This document shows positions 14,264 through 23,328 of a DNA stretch of 64,000 nucleotides, piece by piece. Made by a program: the position numbers and the translations under genes. The notes beneath the pieces were generated by a model. That model saw only the letters and a program-made list of their open reading frames with translations. It was not told where the DNA came from and did not search any database. The stretch is taken from NCBI RefSeq assembly GCF_030143245.1, contig NZ_JARJNS010000005.1, forward strand, positions 372,001-436,000, written 5' to 3'. Every line of letters begins with the position of its first letter. Position 1 is the stretch's first letter. This stretch comes from Rhabdaerophilum sp. SD176 (GTDB lineage Bacteria > Pseudomonadota > Alphaproteobacteria > Rhizobiales > Beijerinckiaceae).

Positions 14264-15280
14264 TTATCCCCGGGTCAGCGCAGGCCCCGTGGAACGCCGG
14301 ACGATCAGGTCGACCGGCAGGGTCAGCGTGGTCGGGCCGGGCTCGTCCCGCAGGATGGCGACCATCATCCGTGCTGCTTCGGTGCCGATCCGCGCTGTCG
14401 GGACATGCACGGTCGTCAGCGAGGGCGAGACATGCGCGGACATGTCGAGATCGTCGATGCCGGCCACCGATAGATCCGCCGGAATCGCAAGGCCCCGGGC
14501 CTGCGCCTCGACCATGCAGCCGATGGCGATGAGATCGATCCCGCCGACAATCGCCGTCGGGGGCTCGGCGAGGTCGAGCAGTTGGGCGCAGCCCATCCGC
14601 CCGCCGGCCAATGTGGTCGCCTGCTCGCAGGCCAGCGCCGGCGGCAGGGTCAGGCCGGCTTCCTCCAGCGCGCGGCGGACGCCGCGATAGCGCCCGCGCT
14701 GGCGGTCATTGAAGCGCGTGGCGCCGGTGATCACGCCGATCCGGCGATGGCCGAGCGCGATCAGATGGCGGGTCGCCAGCAGGCCGGCATATTCGTTGTC
14801 GACCAGCACCGAAGGCGCCCCGTCCGGCGCGCACCAGGTCATCACCACCGGAAGGCCGGATTGCGCAAGCAGCTGTGCGGCTTCGGCAATCCGCTCCGCG
14901 CCGACCAGGATCAGCCCGTCGACACCGCGCGCCAGAAGCGTACGGATGCATTCGGCCTCGGCGGCCTTGCTGTAATCATGCGAGGCGACCAGCAACTGGT
15001 AGCCATCCTCGGCCAGCTGGGCCTGCATGGCCTGCAGGGCCTTGGAGAAGATGGCATTGTCCAGGGTCGGCATCACCGCGCCGATCGTCATCGAGCGCCC
15101 GGAAGCCAGAGCCCGCGCGGCGGCATCGGGGCGATAGCCGAGATGATCGGCCGCCCGACGCACGCGCGCCAGTGTCTCCGGCGAGAGGAGGTCCGGCTGG
15201 CTGATCGCACGCGAGACCGTGGCCGGCGAAACACCAGCTTCGCGCGCGACCTCGCTCAGTCGGATCCGGTTCCTGGCCAT
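14264..15280 (-). CDS. LacI-family transcriptional regulator
   Basis: An N-terminal LacI helix-turn-helix (RLSEVAREAGVSPATVSRAI, residues 7-26) with its hinge helix is followed by a periplasmic-binding-protein-like ligand domain (residues 60-335). I use ATG 15280 (MARNRIRLSE); the upstream in-frame ATG would add 20 residues of no family character. It diverges from the sulfonate-type ABC operon, with three operator-like palindromes in between, one only 10 bp upstream of its own ATG, so it probably represses both itself and the operon. The ligand is unknown. Confidence 0.92.
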   Translation of the reverse strand: MARNRIRLSEVAREAGVSPATVSRAISQPDLLSPETLARVRRAADHLGYRPDAAARALASGRSMTIGAVMPTLDNAIFSKALQAMQAQLAEDGYQLLVASHDYSKAAEAECIRTLLARGVDGLILVGAERIAEAAQLLAQSGLPVVMTWCAPDGAPSVLVDNEYAGLLATRHLIALGHRRIGVITGATRFNDRQRGRYRGVRRALEEAGLTLPPALACEQATTLAGGRMGCAQLLDLAEPPTAIVGGIDLIAIGCMVEAQARGLAIPADLSVAGIDDLDMSAHVSPSLTTVHVPTARIGTEAARMMVAILRDEPGPTTLTLPVDLIVRRSTGPALTRG

Positions 15281-15289
15281 CGCACCCCA

Positions 15290-15303
15290 TGAAAGAACTT
15301 TCA
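15290..15303. promoter_or_regulatory. Operator-like palindrome O1
   Basis: TGAAAG-AA-CTTTCA, with perfect 6-bp arms, lies in the leader of the LacI-type gene. It shares its arms with the sites at 15348 and 15407, and LacI-family operators commonly have this form. The link to the adjacent regulator is inferred from position. Confidence 0.75.
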
Positions 15304-15347
15304 GCAGGCGTGCGATATCCCGTCGCGCCAGTCGAGGCAATGGCGGC

Positions 15348-20226: not shown

Positions 20227-21540
20227 ATGGCGATCACCTACCTGAAGAAGGCCACCAAGACCCCCGAGACCGAGACGGATTCCGCTCGCACGGTCGTTAC
20301 CGAGATGCTGGCCCGCATCCAGGCGGGCGGCGAGCAGGCCGTGCGCGACTATGCGCTCTCGCTCGACAAATGGGACGGCCCCGTCGTCATGGACCAGGCG
20401 ATGATCGCCGAGCGCATCCGCGATGTCCCGGATGGCGTGAAGGAGGATATCCGCCTCGCTGCCGGGCAGGTCCGGCGCTTCGCCGAAGCCCAGCGGGATT
20501 CCTGCCGCGATTTCTCGGTCGAGCTGTCACCCGGCCTTACACTCGGACAGAAGCTCGTGCCGGTAAATACGGCCGGCTGCTATGTGCCGACCGGGCGCTA
20601 CGCGCATATCGCCTCGGCCTACATGTCGGTCGCCACGGCGAAGGCGGCGGGTGTGAAGACGGTGGTTGCCTGTTCCGCACCCTACAAGGGCACGGGCATC
20701 CACCCCTATGTCCTCTATGCGATGACGGTGGCCGGTGCCGACGTGATCATGTGCCTCGGCGGCGTGCAGGCCATCGCGGCCATGACCTTCGGCCTCTTCA
20801 CCGGCAAACCGGCGGATATCATCGTCGGCCCTGGCAACAAGTTCGTGGCCGAAGCCAAGCGCATGCTCTTCGGCAAGGTCGGGATCGATGTCTTCGCCGG
20901 CCCCTCGGAAGTGGCGGTGATCGCCGATGACAGCGCCGATCCGCTGATCGTCGCGACCGATCTCGTCGGCCAGGCCGAGCATGGCCACGAAAGCCCGGCC
21001 TGGCTGATCACCAGTTCCCGCCGCGTGGCGGATGCGGTCATGGCGCTGATGCCGGAGCTGATCGAGGCCCTGCCGCCCACCGCGCGCGATGCCGCCGGCG
21101 CGGCCTGGCGCGATTACGGCGAGGTGGTCCTCTGCGATACGCGGGAGGAGATGGTCGCCATCTCGGATGCCTATGCCTGCGAGCATCTGGAAGTGCATTG
21201 CACCGATCTCGACTGGTGGCATGCCAGCCTGACCAATTACGGCTCGCTGTTCCTCGGCGAGGAAACCAATGTCGCCTTCGGGGACAAGGTTTCCGGCCCG
21301 AACCACATTCTACCGACCAAATTTGCCGCGCGGTATTCCGCCGGCCTGTCGGTCCATAAATTCCTCAAGCCGCTGACCTGGCAACGGATGAACCGGGAAG
21401 CCTGCCAGGCCCTGGCCCCGGTCTCGGCCCGGATCTCGCGACTGGAGGGCATGGAGGCCCATGCCCGGACGAGCGATGTCCGGATGGCGAAATATGCGCC
21501 CGGCAACAATGCCGATCTCGGCCGGCCGGTGGAGGCCTGA
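20227..21540 (+). CDS. hpsN: Histidinol-dehydrogenase-family enzyme, probable sulfopropanediol 3-dehydrogenase (HpsN-like)
   Basis: A 437-residue NAD- and zinc-dependent dehydrogenase of the HisD fold. Catalytic and metal-binding segments are intact: [11 protein letters not shown], the Glu-His pair in YACEHLEVH and GPNHILPT. No histidine genes are nearby, and the N-terminus ([12 protein letters not shown]) is of the HpsN type rather than HisD. HpsN oxidises (R)-2,3-dihydroxypropane-1-sulfonate to sulfolactate. The next two genes, an SDR and a Zn-ADH, match the hpsN-hpsO-hpsP order as I recall it from Cupriavidus. The sulfonate substrate remains an inference. Confidence 0.7.
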
Positions 21541-22314
21541 ATGGCGTTTCGCCTTGGCGCCCTGTTCGATCTGACCGGCCGGACGGCGCTGGTTACGGGT
21601 GGCAACAGCGGCATCGGCCTCGCCATGGCGCGCGCGCTCGGCCTGGCCGGGGCCGAAATCGTGCTGGCCGCGCGCCGGCAGGAGGAAACTGCCAGCGCGA
21701 TTGCGGATCTGACCCGGGAGGGCATTTTCGCCCGGGGCATTCTGGTCGATCTTGCCGCGCCCGACTGTGCGTCCATCGTCCTCGATCAGCTGAAGCTCTT
21801 CGATTGCGAGCCTGACATTCTCGTCAATGCAGCCGGCGTGAATCTGCGGCAGCCCTTTCCGGAGGTGACGGCGGAAGCCTTCGACCTCCACATGGCGCTG
21901 CATCTGCGCGCGCCCTTCCTGCTGACGCAGGCCCTCGCTCCGGCCATGGCGGCGAAAGGCTGGGGGAGGATCCTCAACATTGCCTCGCTGCAGAGCTACC
22001 GCGCCTTCCCGAATTCCGCGCCCTATGGCGCCGGGAAAGGCGGCGTGGTCCAGCTCACCCGCGCCATCGCGGAGGAATGGTCGCGCCATGGCGTGACCTG
22101 CAATGCCATTGCACCCGGCTTCTTCCCGACGCCCCTGACGGCTCCGGTCTTTGCCGATCCCGAGCGTTCGGCCCGCAACGCTGCGCAGACAGCCATCGGC
22201 CGCAACGGCCAGCTGGAAGATCTGCACGGCGTGACCGTCTTCCTCGCCTCGGACGCCTCCGCCTATGTGACGGGCCAGACGCTTGCCGTGGATGGCGGGT
22301 TCACCGCAAAATAG
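21541..22314 (+). CDS. SDR-family dehydrogenase (HpsO-like by position)
   Basis: A 257-residue classical short-chain dehydrogenase. The cofactor motif TGGNSGIG (residues 19-26), NAAG, and the catalytic Ser-Tyr-Lys ([23 protein letters not shown]) are all present, and the C-terminal [12 protein letters not shown] is standard. The ATG directly abuts the stop of the HpsN-like gene. In hps operons a dehydrogenase here is thought to act at C2 of dihydroxypropanesulfonate, interconverting enantiomers with its partner. Confidence 0.9.
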
Positions 22315-22323
22315 GACAGGGTG

Positions 22324-23328
22324 ATGAAAGCGCTTGTCTATCTCGGCCCGAACAGCGTCACCTACCGCGACGAGCCCGATCCGGTGCCGCTGCCGGGCGA
22401 GGTGCTGGTCCGGGTCGAGGCCGTCGGCATTTGCGGTTCGGACATGCATGCCTATCACGGCCATGACAGCCGACGGCCGCCGCCGCTCATCCTCGGGCAT
22501 GAGGCAGCGGGCCGGATCACCGGCGGCCCAAGGGATGGCGAACGCGTGACCATCAACCCGCTCGTCGTCGATCCCGCCTGCCCCTATGCAATCGAGGGGC
22601 GCTGGCATCTCTCGCCAACGCGTCAGATCATCTCGATGCCGCCGCGCCCGGGCGCCTTTGCCGAATTCGTCCGCATCCCCGAGCGCAATGTCGTGGCGAT
22701 CCCGGACTCGATGCCCATTGCCCATGCCGCCCTGGCGGAGCCGGTTGCCGTCGCCTGGCATGCCGTACGGCTCGGCATGGAGAAGCTCCACCAGCCTCTG
22801 GCATCCTGTCGGGTCGTCGTCCTGGGTGGCGGCGCCATCGGTCTGGCCTCGGCGATTGTCGCGCGGCATTTCGGCGCGAAGGACATCCGGATCGCCGAGT
22901 CAAACCCCTTGCGGGCTGGCCTGATCCGCGACGAGGAAGGCTTCACGGTCCATGCGCCCGGCAGCGCCGGGGCTCCGGCGGCGGATTCGGTCGATCTTGT
23001 CATCGATGCCGTCGGCGCGGTGGCCACACGGCAGGCCGCCAGCGCCATGATCCGCCCGGGCGGGGTGATCGTCCATGCCGGGCTGCTGCCCGGCACCGAG
23101 GGGCTGGATATCCGCAAGATCACGCTGCAGGAAGTCACCCTGACCGGCACCTATTGCTACACGCCTGTCGATTTCGTGCAGACCGTTGCAGCACTGGCCT
23201 CCGGGCAGCTGGGCGCCTTGCACTGGTTCGAGCTGCGCCCGCTGGCCGAGGGCGCCGCCGCCTTCCGGGGCATTGACGAGGGCACGGTGCGCGCGCCCAA
23301 GGTTGTGCTCGACTGCCTCGCGACCTGA
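22324..23328 (+). CDS. Zinc-type alcohol dehydrogenase (HpsP-like by position)
   Basis: A 334-residue MDR-fold dehydrogenase. The catalytic-zinc residues are in GICGSDMH and GHEAAGRI, and the nucleotide-binding motif is VVVLGGGAIGLASA. The four-cysteine structural-zinc lobe that normally follows is almost absent: only one Cys (PACPYAIEG) remains in that region. The ATG at 22324 is preferred over GTG at 22321. It ends the plus-strand operon and its stop is 4 bp from that of a convergent gene. Confidence 0.88.
   Translation: MKALVYLGPNSVTYRDEPDPVPLPGEVLVRVEAVGICGSDMHAYHGHDSRRPPPLILGHEAAGRITGGPRDGERVTINPLVVDPACPYAIEGRWHLSPTRQIISMPPRPGAFAEFVRIPERNVVAIPDSMPIAHAALAEPVAVAWHAVRLGMEKLHQPLASCRVVVLGGGAIGLASAIVARHFGAKDIRIAESNPLRAGLIRDEEGFTVHAPGSAGAPAADSVDLVIDAVGAVATRQAASAMIRPGGVIVHAGLLPGTEGLDIRKITLQEVTLTGTYCYTPVDFVQTVAALASGQLGALHWFELRPLAEGAAAFRGIDEGTVRAPKVVLDCLAT

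Follow-up and report, generated by a model that had tools for sequence, protein, structure and literature searches.

A predicted C3-sulfonate operon with an ATP-binding cassette importer and a DegT-family aminotransferase in Rhabdaerophilum sp. SD176

Which sulfonate does the operon at positions 14264–23328 of this stretch serve, where is the sulfonate group removed, and what in the operon is new? The stretch, here called the window, comprises 64,000 nucleotides (372001–436000) of contig C20 of Rhabdaerophilum sp. SD176, whose 3.96-Mb genome is held in 25 contigs and is 99% complete. The initial annotation, made from the letters, read the locus as an HpsNOP-like module for dihydroxypropanesulfonate (DHPS) with its own ATP-binding cassette (ABC) importer and LacI control. 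Family searches agree with the genes it named and with their positions (lacI, two permeases and the rest of the importer, a HisD-fold enzyme, a short-chain dehydrogenase/reductase [SDR], and a zinc-dependent alcohol dehydrogenase [Zn-ADH]). At its core the locus is very probably a DHPS catabolic operon. The fuller explanation, a LacI-controlled C3-sulfonate operon with its SuyAB step on contig C17 and a DegT-family aminotransferase that would widen the diet, is given a probability of about 0.6.

Enzymes, importer, and regulator of the operon

The operon runs from two TauC-type permeases through an ATPase, the DegT aminotransferase, and an SsuA/TauA-type binding protein to HpsN, the SDR, and the Zn-ADH; lacI is divergent. 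Neighboring genes overlap or are spaced by fewer than 70 bases. Features are as follows.

14264–15277 (open frame to 15340), minus strand: LacI-family regulator (Pfam LacI and Peripla_BP_3)
15290–15303, no strand: putative LacI operator TGAAA-N4-TTTCA, beside the lacI start
15348–15361, no strand: putative LacI operator, middle (third) site, found only in the window and L041–L044
15407–15420, no strand: putative LacI operator TGAAAGCGCTTTCA, downstream of a TTGACT element
15458–16243, plus strand: ABC permease A, TauC/SsuC type (NCBIfam TauC 1.5e-47, below cut-off; 65% identical to a Paracoccus ferrooxidans permease)
16243–17034, plus strand: ABC permease B, TauC/SsuC type (70% identical to the other P. 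ferrooxidans permease)
17045–17842 (open frame from 16976), plus strand: ABC ATPase (NCBIfam SaoA/NtrCD/TauB, below cut-off; 73% identical to P. ferrooxidans)
17835–19082, plus strand: DegT/DnrJ/EryC1/StrS pyridoxal phosphate (PLP) aminotransferase of a distinct HpsN-linked subfamily (Pfam PF01041, 1.3e-53)
19112–20161, plus strand: periplasmic binding protein, SsuA/TauA/NMT1 type (NCBIfam SsuA_fam 2.4e-27, below cut-off)
20227–21540, plus strand: HpsN, predicted (R)-DHPS 3-dehydrogenase (73% identical to the Cupriavidus pinatubonensis protein, CpHpsN; PDB 8v35, motif residues, tree)
21541–22314, plus strand: HpsO, predicted SDR DHPS dehydrogenase (61% identical to CpHpsO; key residues)
22324–23328, plus strand: HpsP, predicted Zn-dependent (S)-DHPS dehydrogenase (46% identical to CpHpsP; key residues)

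Thirty-five loci from different genome records were compared (the window, L044, L049, L061–L089, L093, L094, and L099). The nine-gene set is complete in 29 and the remaining six stop at a contig end, so the operon is not a chance assembly. A scripted order check passed 28 of the 29 complete loci; it failed on L075 through an over-long open frame, and the gene order there is normal. Carriers belong to Hyphomicrobiales (Bosea, Phreatobacter, and Beijerinckiaceae); the complete operon is present in a cultured species, Bosea lupini. Base composition does not change abruptly at either end of the operon. Integration of an island at the tRNA-Arg(ccg) gene just outside the operon (14128–14204) was rejected, as the last 12–24 tRNA bases have no second copy in the window.

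HpsN is assigned by identity, residues, and phylogeny. It is 72.6% identical to CpHpsN over 434 residues, and a PDB sequence search matched the C. pinatubonensis structure 8v35 at 3.8e-211. Passages of PMC11382572 give a G-R-Y-A/S-H motif, sulfonate binders His126 and Lys353, zinc ligands Gln248, His251, Asp352, and His411, and a catalytic pair of Glu318 and His319. All 17 positions checked are the same as in CpHpsN, including GRYAH, the equivalents of His126 and Lys353, the zinc ligands, and the catalytic pair. The genome's own HisD (contig C18) is 37% identical to the window HpsN and has neither H126 nor K353. In a tree of 88 rows, the window HpsN falls inside a 34-row clade with CpHpsN (support 100/100) and HisD lies far outside; the tool flagged long branches for HisD, L214, L211, L160, and L145. 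Identity as HisD or as a member of another clade of histidinol dehydrogenase (HDH)-like proteins, an outcome that the initial annotation saw as fatal to its reading, is ruled out by residues and tree. HpsN would convert (R)-DHPS, and also sulfolactaldehyde, to (R)-sulfolactate in a four-electron, NAD- and Zn-dependent oxidation.

HpsO and HpsP complete the module. Passages of PMC11131964 list Ser145, Gln147, Tyr158, and Lys162 as key residues of RpHpsO and His59, Glu60, and Glu139 as those of DsHpsP. The window HpsO has S149, Q151, Y162, and K166 at the RpHpsO spacing, and HpsP keeps the equivalents of all three DsHpsP residues. Three of the four structural-zinc cysteines of HpsP are gone in all 17 compared members of this operon type and also in L053. 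They are kept in HpsP of L052, L154, L155, L157, L158, L144, L057, and L058, a set that includes P. ferrooxidans, roseobacter-type, and Cupriavidus proteins. The four cysteines are presumably those of the usual Zn-ADH structural zinc site, which is not a published criterion for HpsP. In the proposed route, HpsO would oxidize (R)-DHPS and HpsP (S)-DHPS. Identity, active-site residues, and phylogeny thus bear out the proposed HpsNOP module.

The importer is, by its matches, a member of the SsuABC/TauABC superfamily and not an orthologue; the SsuA, TauA, TauC, and SsuC families are among its best, and none of their curated cut-offs was reached. Permeases A and B are 37% identical to each other. 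The solved structure nearest to the binding protein by sequence is a taurine-binding protein (9e-10), and identity to the TauA-like protein of the cuyA operons described below is only 24%. The same importer type stands without DegT at hpsNOP in L052 and L053, and in the ABC-hpsNOP-suyAB locus of P. ferrooxidans pFER3 (ATPase 73%, permeases 65–70%, binding protein 61%). Given these hps loci, it most likely carries DHPS, perhaps with aminated relatives, by ATP-driven uptake. Among rows of the HpsN tree set, 19 are hpsO/P loci with genes for tripartite ATP-independent periplasmic (TRAP) transporters, which makes TRAP the more frequent partner in that set. An ABC importer with two permeases is a less frequent hps variant, though not a unique one.

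The regulator shares 46% identity with the LacI encoded at the C. pinatubonensis hps locus, and its gene is transcribed away from the importer in each of the 29 complete loci. Three TGAAA-N4-TTTCA palindromes lie 58–59 bases apart, and the window has no others (0.02 expected); TGAAAGCGCTTTCA has a single copy in the genome with up to one mismatch allowed. Among 30 upstream regions, many of them closely related, a GC-centered site is found in 30 and a second site in 28 (half sites, at most one mismatch). These putative operators fit a local, self-regulating repressor. A wider LacI regulon that covers suyAB was ruled out, as the operator occurs once in the genome and away from suyAB. A scan for consensus promoters and terminators gave nothing above chance and no promoter site near the 15407 operator.

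Known hps loci show how much of this is shared. The hpsRNOUP-suyAB cluster of C. pinatubonensis, read from strain HN-2, is alike in its LacI-type regulator, HpsN, HpsO, HpsP, and SuyAB, but it has a major facilitator superfamily (MFS) transporter and keeps suyAB in the same cluster, whereas the window has the ABC importer and DegT, with suyAB on another contig. Roseobacter-type hpsKLM-NOP loci share LacI and the hpsNOP order; they differ in their TRAP transporter, in adjoining ComDE (L157 and L158) or SuyAB (L156), and in the absence of DegT from the four loci compared. The pFER3 locus shares LacI and hpsNOP as well as the importer, but has the importer on the opposite strand, suyAB adjacent, and no DegT annotated. 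LacI genes adjoin hps genes in L144 and L154–L158, the loci of C. pinatubonensis, P. ferrooxidans, Rhodovulum, P. seriniphilus, Sulfitobacter, and Leisingera, and LacI control is therefore normal for hps. The initial annotation had treated this control as a special trait; LacI is present in all six of these loci. Its contrast of an ABC importer with MFS or TRAP transporters holds to the extent that TRAP is commoner in the tree set, and fails in that the same importer type stands in P. ferrooxidans. As a whole it was right on HpsNOP and on desulfonation elsewhere, too strong on the distinctiveness of LacI and importer, and passed over DegT (17835–19082) and a cluster from 23333.

Desulfonation outside the window

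Genome searches gave no SuyB-, Xsc-, or CuyA-type match inside the window; ComDE was not searched for. The initial annotation's statement that the window has no desulfonating enzyme stands for the SuyB and Xsc types. It supposed that the final step lies elsewhere or that the substrate differs, and named suyAB and xsc as genes to look for, and suyAB was found on contig C17.

C17 399650–400804, minus strand: suyB (70% identical to CpSuyB)
C17, preceding suyB: suyA (52% identical to CpSuyA)

A search for the UxaA/SuyB fold returned two genes in the genome, on C17 and C23. The C23 gene was rejected as SuyB (31% identical to CpSuyB, with TRAP-type genes nearby). Xsc was rejected as the lyase (0 of 6 matches over the curated cut-off), as was CuyA (best match 37%, 2.6e-59; none at 1e-80). 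The C17 operon (L060 3111–9241) has the order suyA-suyB-yeiH-slcC-like-comC-like-aldehyde dehydrogenase, with a divergent GntR gene. The D-2-hydroxyacid dehydrogenase is, by family, presumably of the SlcC type. The Ldh_2 enzyme is the genome's only Ldh_2 match, and its best NCBIfam match is L-sulfolactate dehydrogenase NF040650 (ComC type), below cut-off. The YeiH match is also below its curated cut-off; the match of the aldehyde dehydrogenase to the succinate-semialdehyde dehydrogenase (SSADH) subfamily is above. SuyAB would split (R)-sulfolactate into pyruvate and sulfite, alongside SlcC-like, ComC-like, and SSADH-type enzymes and a YeiH-type exporter.

The two loci tend to occur together. 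At 1e-80, suyB is present in 22 of 40 tested genomes, including all 14 family members that carry the ABC-hps module. It is present in 9 of 39 family members without HpsN, versus 14 of 14 carriers (Fisher p 3e-7, kinship uncorrected); this comparison leaves out six family members with only a 48–51% HDH-like match, and G036, which has another hps type. In L086, L087, L089, and L093, suyB and yeiH lie close to the hps module.

The DegT-family aminotransferase and its partners

The new content of the locus is the DegT subfamily; the operon is otherwise largely of a known type. The DegT protein is complete and scores 182.9 bits against PF01041 (cut-off 19.8). Its subfamily is a 57-row group with support 100/100 against six other DegT proteins. 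Lys195 and Asp166 are invariant, and Lys195 is, from the family motif, presumably the PLP lysine. Arg36, Arg143, and His145 are fixed in 52 core rows and different in outgroup rows; His169 is fixed in the same core and different in five of six outgroup rows. Lys334, Trp335, and Arg374 are also fixed in the core, but gaps occupy these positions in most of the outgroup. By sequence, the closest solved structures are 3-amino-5-hydroxybenzoate (AHBA) synthase (6.5e-31) and inosose aminotransferases, and we know of no characterized close relative of the subfamily. The closest relatives, 94–95% identical, come from metagenome-assembled genomes of Beijerinckiaceae/Hyphomicrobiales, one of them from a pond.

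DegT is often found with HpsN. It is present in all 29 complete loci of the ABC-hpsNOP operon. Among 385 Alphaproteobacteria, DegT (1e-60) occurs in 22, HpsN (1e-135) in 30, and both in 18, with 1.7 expected (Fisher p 1.5e-19, shared ancestry ignored). Chromosome loci L061–L099 have HpsN in 34 of 39; L076 and L099 lie on truncated contigs. None of 40 DegT loci at greater distance has an HpsN. In a plasmid collection, 11 records hold a DegT relative, and 10 of these also have a CuyA-type gene, an amino-acid racemase, and HpsN, with the CuyA-type gene annotated as "D-cysteine desulfhydrase" and HpsN as hisD. The eleventh (Roseovarius W115, DegT 39%) has no HpsN.

The other ten plasmid records represent a second type of operon, cuyA-degT-racemase-hpsN, in most cases accompanied by tauABC. 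It recurs among alpha-, beta-, and gammaproteobacteria, with examples from Ensifer, Shinella, Mesorhizobium, Ancylobacter, Paracoccus, Leisingera, Pseudomonas MPC6, and Enterovibrio. These operons share the DegT subfamily (45–51% identical) and HpsN with the window. They differ in that cysteate lyase and racemase replace HpsO/HpsP and SuyAB, and the regulator is mostly LysR; the importer is TauABC-type or TRAP, with none adjacent in Leisingera. On the HpsN tree the CuyA-type operon label needs at least five changes, so the association arose or was exchanged repeatedly.

Several arrangements stand beside these two. Operons of the cuyA type in L142, L147–L151, L143, L145, and L140 have TauABC-type or TRAP importers; some end in a YeiH-type exporter, and some include an alpha/beta hydrolase. 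HpsN is fragmented in L141, a Polaromonas plasmid in which CuyA is fragmented too, and in L090, which suggests decay of the cuyA-type operon there. In L228 (G323), LacI, a TauABC-type importer, HpsN (73%), and DegT occur without HpsO/HpsP or cuyA, and suyB is elsewhere in the genome; this is possibly a minimal DegT-HpsN unit. DegT also stands away from HpsN in L215, L222, L229, L232, L218, L226, L234, and others, mostly in genomes with HpsN elsewhere. These stand-alone genes are candidates for cysteinolate synthesis, and their neighbors are common only within a family (L215, L222, L229, and L232; L219 and L227).

The partner common to both DegT operon types is HpsN, not HpsO/HpsP, CuyA, or SuyAB. 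The chemistry that would join an aminotransferase, a DHPS dehydrogenase, and cysteate enzymes is that of cysteinolic acid (2-amino-3-hydroxypropanesulfonate), the 2-amino analogue of DHPS. DegT would replace the C2 amino group of cysteinolic acid with a keto group, or act in the opposite direction, and the skeleton would then join the DHPS route. CuyA, the racemase, and the mostly TauABC-like importers of the second operon type likewise hint at an aminated substrate. Ten genomes (the present one, G003, G007, G011, G018, G030, G041, G215, G319, and G323) have DegT and suyB without CuyA at 1e-80, and DegT is therefore not merely a CuyA feeder. We infer that through DegT an aminated C3 sulfonate, most likely cysteinolic acid, would gain access to the pathway; the enzyme is the strongest hint of a substrate range wider than DHPS. 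No paper that links DegT to C3 sulfonates was found among the matches listed, and the papers searched assign no enzymes for the breakdown of cysteinolic acid. Passages of PMC11131964 report a proposed algal route from cysteinolic acid through 2-oxo-3-hydroxypropanesulfonate to DHPS, with both compounds detected in algae. Cysteinolic acid is described as abundant in microalgae (passages of PMC8703288), as occurring in a bacterium (PMC9695272), and as the head group of roseobacter lipids (PMC8319176 and PMC11631085); passages of the latter two describe the biosynthesis of cysteinolic acid as not established.

The adjacent sulfoquinovose cluster and the reading of the locus

The module adjoins a second sulfonate cluster at 23333–32901.

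23333–24454, minus strand: GH188-type NAD-dependent sulfoquinovosidase, SqgA family (PDB 8qc2 6.5e-136, 8qc3 2.3e-134)
24451–25968, minus strand: SftI-like sulfoquinovose isomerase (sole NCBIfam match NF048012, 6e-71)
25877–27064, minus strand: LacD/tagatose-bisphosphate-type class I aldolase (NCBIfam PRK12858, over cut-off)
27028–31330, plus strand: sugar ABC importer with a SmoF-like (sulfoquinovosyl glycerol) binding protein at 28082–29455 (SmoF 7nbz, 5.6e-122)
31786–32901, minus strand: aldose 1-epimerase family (PDB galactose mutarotases, 2.5e-66)

Passages of PMC10755693 give Arg166, Leu170, and Lys172 as sulfonate contacts of SqgA; the GH188 protein has RFPFLEK, with the R-x3-L-x-K spacing of these residues, a match of spacing only and unaligned. 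The SftI-like protein scores 239.5 bits, below the NF048012 cut-off of 700, and has no match among PDB sequences. The best PDB match of the aldolase is an uncharacterized DUF2090 protein (2.2e-93), and sulfofructosephosphate aldolase 7ag7 matches at 7.9e-15. The cluster resembles the Smo, SqgA, and SftI systems in its SmoF-like binding protein, GH188 glycosidase, and SftI-like isomerase. It differs in its LacD-like aldolase, and no kinase, monooxygenase, or dedicated transaldolase was recognized among the open frames scanned. The cluster should yield sulfolactaldehyde inside the cell, and with the suy operon it is predicted to let a single cell use plant sulfolipid head groups completely, down to pyruvate and sulfite. 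The cluster also borders the module in three other loci, L041, L043, and L044; in L042, where the contig ends, and in L088 it does so in part. Beyond the suy operon, L060 10771–12426 encodes a binding protein that shares 47% identity with the SmoF-like protein. Farther along the window, judging by the open frames only, 34355–42080 presumably encodes a cytochrome oxidase of the cbb3 type together with CcoG- and copper-ATPase-like proteins.

A role of DegT in cysteinolate use is given somewhat less than even odds. A bacterial route of cysteinolic acid catabolism built on DegT and HpsN, with two wirings (ABC-degT-hpsNOP to SuyAB, and cuyA-degT-racemase-hpsN to CuyA) and with stand-alone alphaproteobacterial copies that make or interconvert cysteinolate, falls a little short of an even chance. 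Several observations weigh against the main explanation. A survey across the class covered DegT contexts from 20 of 21 other DegT genomes, leaving out G403 and second copies in G121, G252, and G427. Five of these contexts have HpsN nearby, one has CuyA and racemase but no HpsN, and 14 have neither HpsN nor CuyA in the vicinity. These 14 contexts also fit a biosynthetic role; HpsN is elsewhere in 11 of the 14 genomes. L092 has cuyA-degT-racemase without HpsN, L090 has two HpsN fragments only, and L097 has none. DegT is absent from the otherwise alike ABC-hpsNOP loci L052 and L053 and is not annotated in P. ferrooxidans, so it is an addition to the module, and DHPS may be all that the importer carries. 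Four congeners (G002, G012, G013, and G015) have a 57–58% CuyA match, which makes cysteate use possible in some carriers. An operator search found no site near suyAB. Passages of PMC11131964 give C3-oxidation, not C2-reduction, for HpsO and HpsP, and the keto product of a cysteinolate transaminase would thus be without a proven reductase here.

The same genes allow other accounts. HpsN might itself oxidize (R)-cysteinolate to L-cysteate, as HisD takes L-histidinol to L-histidine; DegT would then convert cysteate to sulfopyruvate and the ComC-like enzyme would reduce that to (R)-sulfolactate for SuyAB, while in the second operon type racemase and CuyA would split cysteate. This is unlikely yet credible: the second type has HpsN, racemase, and CuyA with no HpsO/HpsP in the records examined, the suy operon holds a ComC-like gene, and (R)-DHPS, (R)-cysteinolate, and L-histidinol can be reasoned to share a spatial arrangement. 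Passages of PMC11382572 have L-cysteate bound to CpHpsN like a product but describe it as an inhibitor of that enzyme; moreover, the window HpsN lies in the clade of the proven DHPS dehydrogenase, and DegT would be superfluous in cuyA operons. A plain DHPS operon in which DegT aminates sulfopyruvate to cysteate (Coa type) is rather unlikely. Passages of PMC11382572 describe the R. pomeroyi gene for this conversion as unknown, DegT stands beside cuyA and racemase in 10 of 11 plasmid records, and a SlcD-like piece (56%) lies about 10 kb away in L143. However, cysteate would be formed without evident use in the ten genomes with DegT and suyB but no CuyA, and no sulfolactate dehydrogenase is annotated inside the examined cuyA operons (L150 has a gene of the Ldh family some 6 kb upstream).

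DegT might also work in the making direction: it would aminate the keto counterpart of DHPS and so give cysteinolate for use as a solute or in lipid head groups, with its position at hps reflecting the common intermediate. The many DegT genes that stand apart with HpsN elsewhere (11 of 14 such genomes) and the roseobacter cysteinolic-acid lipids favor this, but the window DegT gene runs in the same direction as the importer and catabolic genes, with overlap, and lies behind repressor-type sites, and cuyA operons look catabolic; the account is improbable. So, to the same degree, is a module that mainly serves the sulfoquinovose cluster, with HpsN oxidizing internally made sulfolactaldehyde and the importer as salvage. 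Genes for GH188, SmoF-like, SftI-like, and aldolase proteins directly adjoin the module, and passages of PMC11382572 describe sulfolactaldehyde as a better HpsN substrate than DHPS; the cluster, however, adjoins the module only in near relatives, the hps module is conserved without it, and the suy operon already has an aldehyde dehydrogenase. Hardly credible is the reading that the locus is no sulfonate system and that its HDH-like enzyme acts on some other polyol or on an amino alcohol. Other HDH-like clades do have different neighbors (L159 and L160), but the sulfonate-binding His126 and Lys353 are present, the clade with CpHpsN has 100/100 support, and suyB accompanies the module in 14 of 14 family carriers.

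Much of the organic sulfur that passes between algae or plants and bacteria travels as DHPS, sulfoquinovose, and cysteinolic acid. The operon unites an importer, a regulator, DHPS enzymes, and a new aminotransferase subfamily in Hyphomicrobiales, beyond the marine roseobacters of the DHPS papers. Annotations such as "hisD," "D-cysteine desulfhydrase," and "DegT aminotransferase" in such operons can mask sulfonate metabolism. If DegT handles cysteinolate, it would be a marker gene for the breakdown, or the making, of an abundant algal osmolyte.

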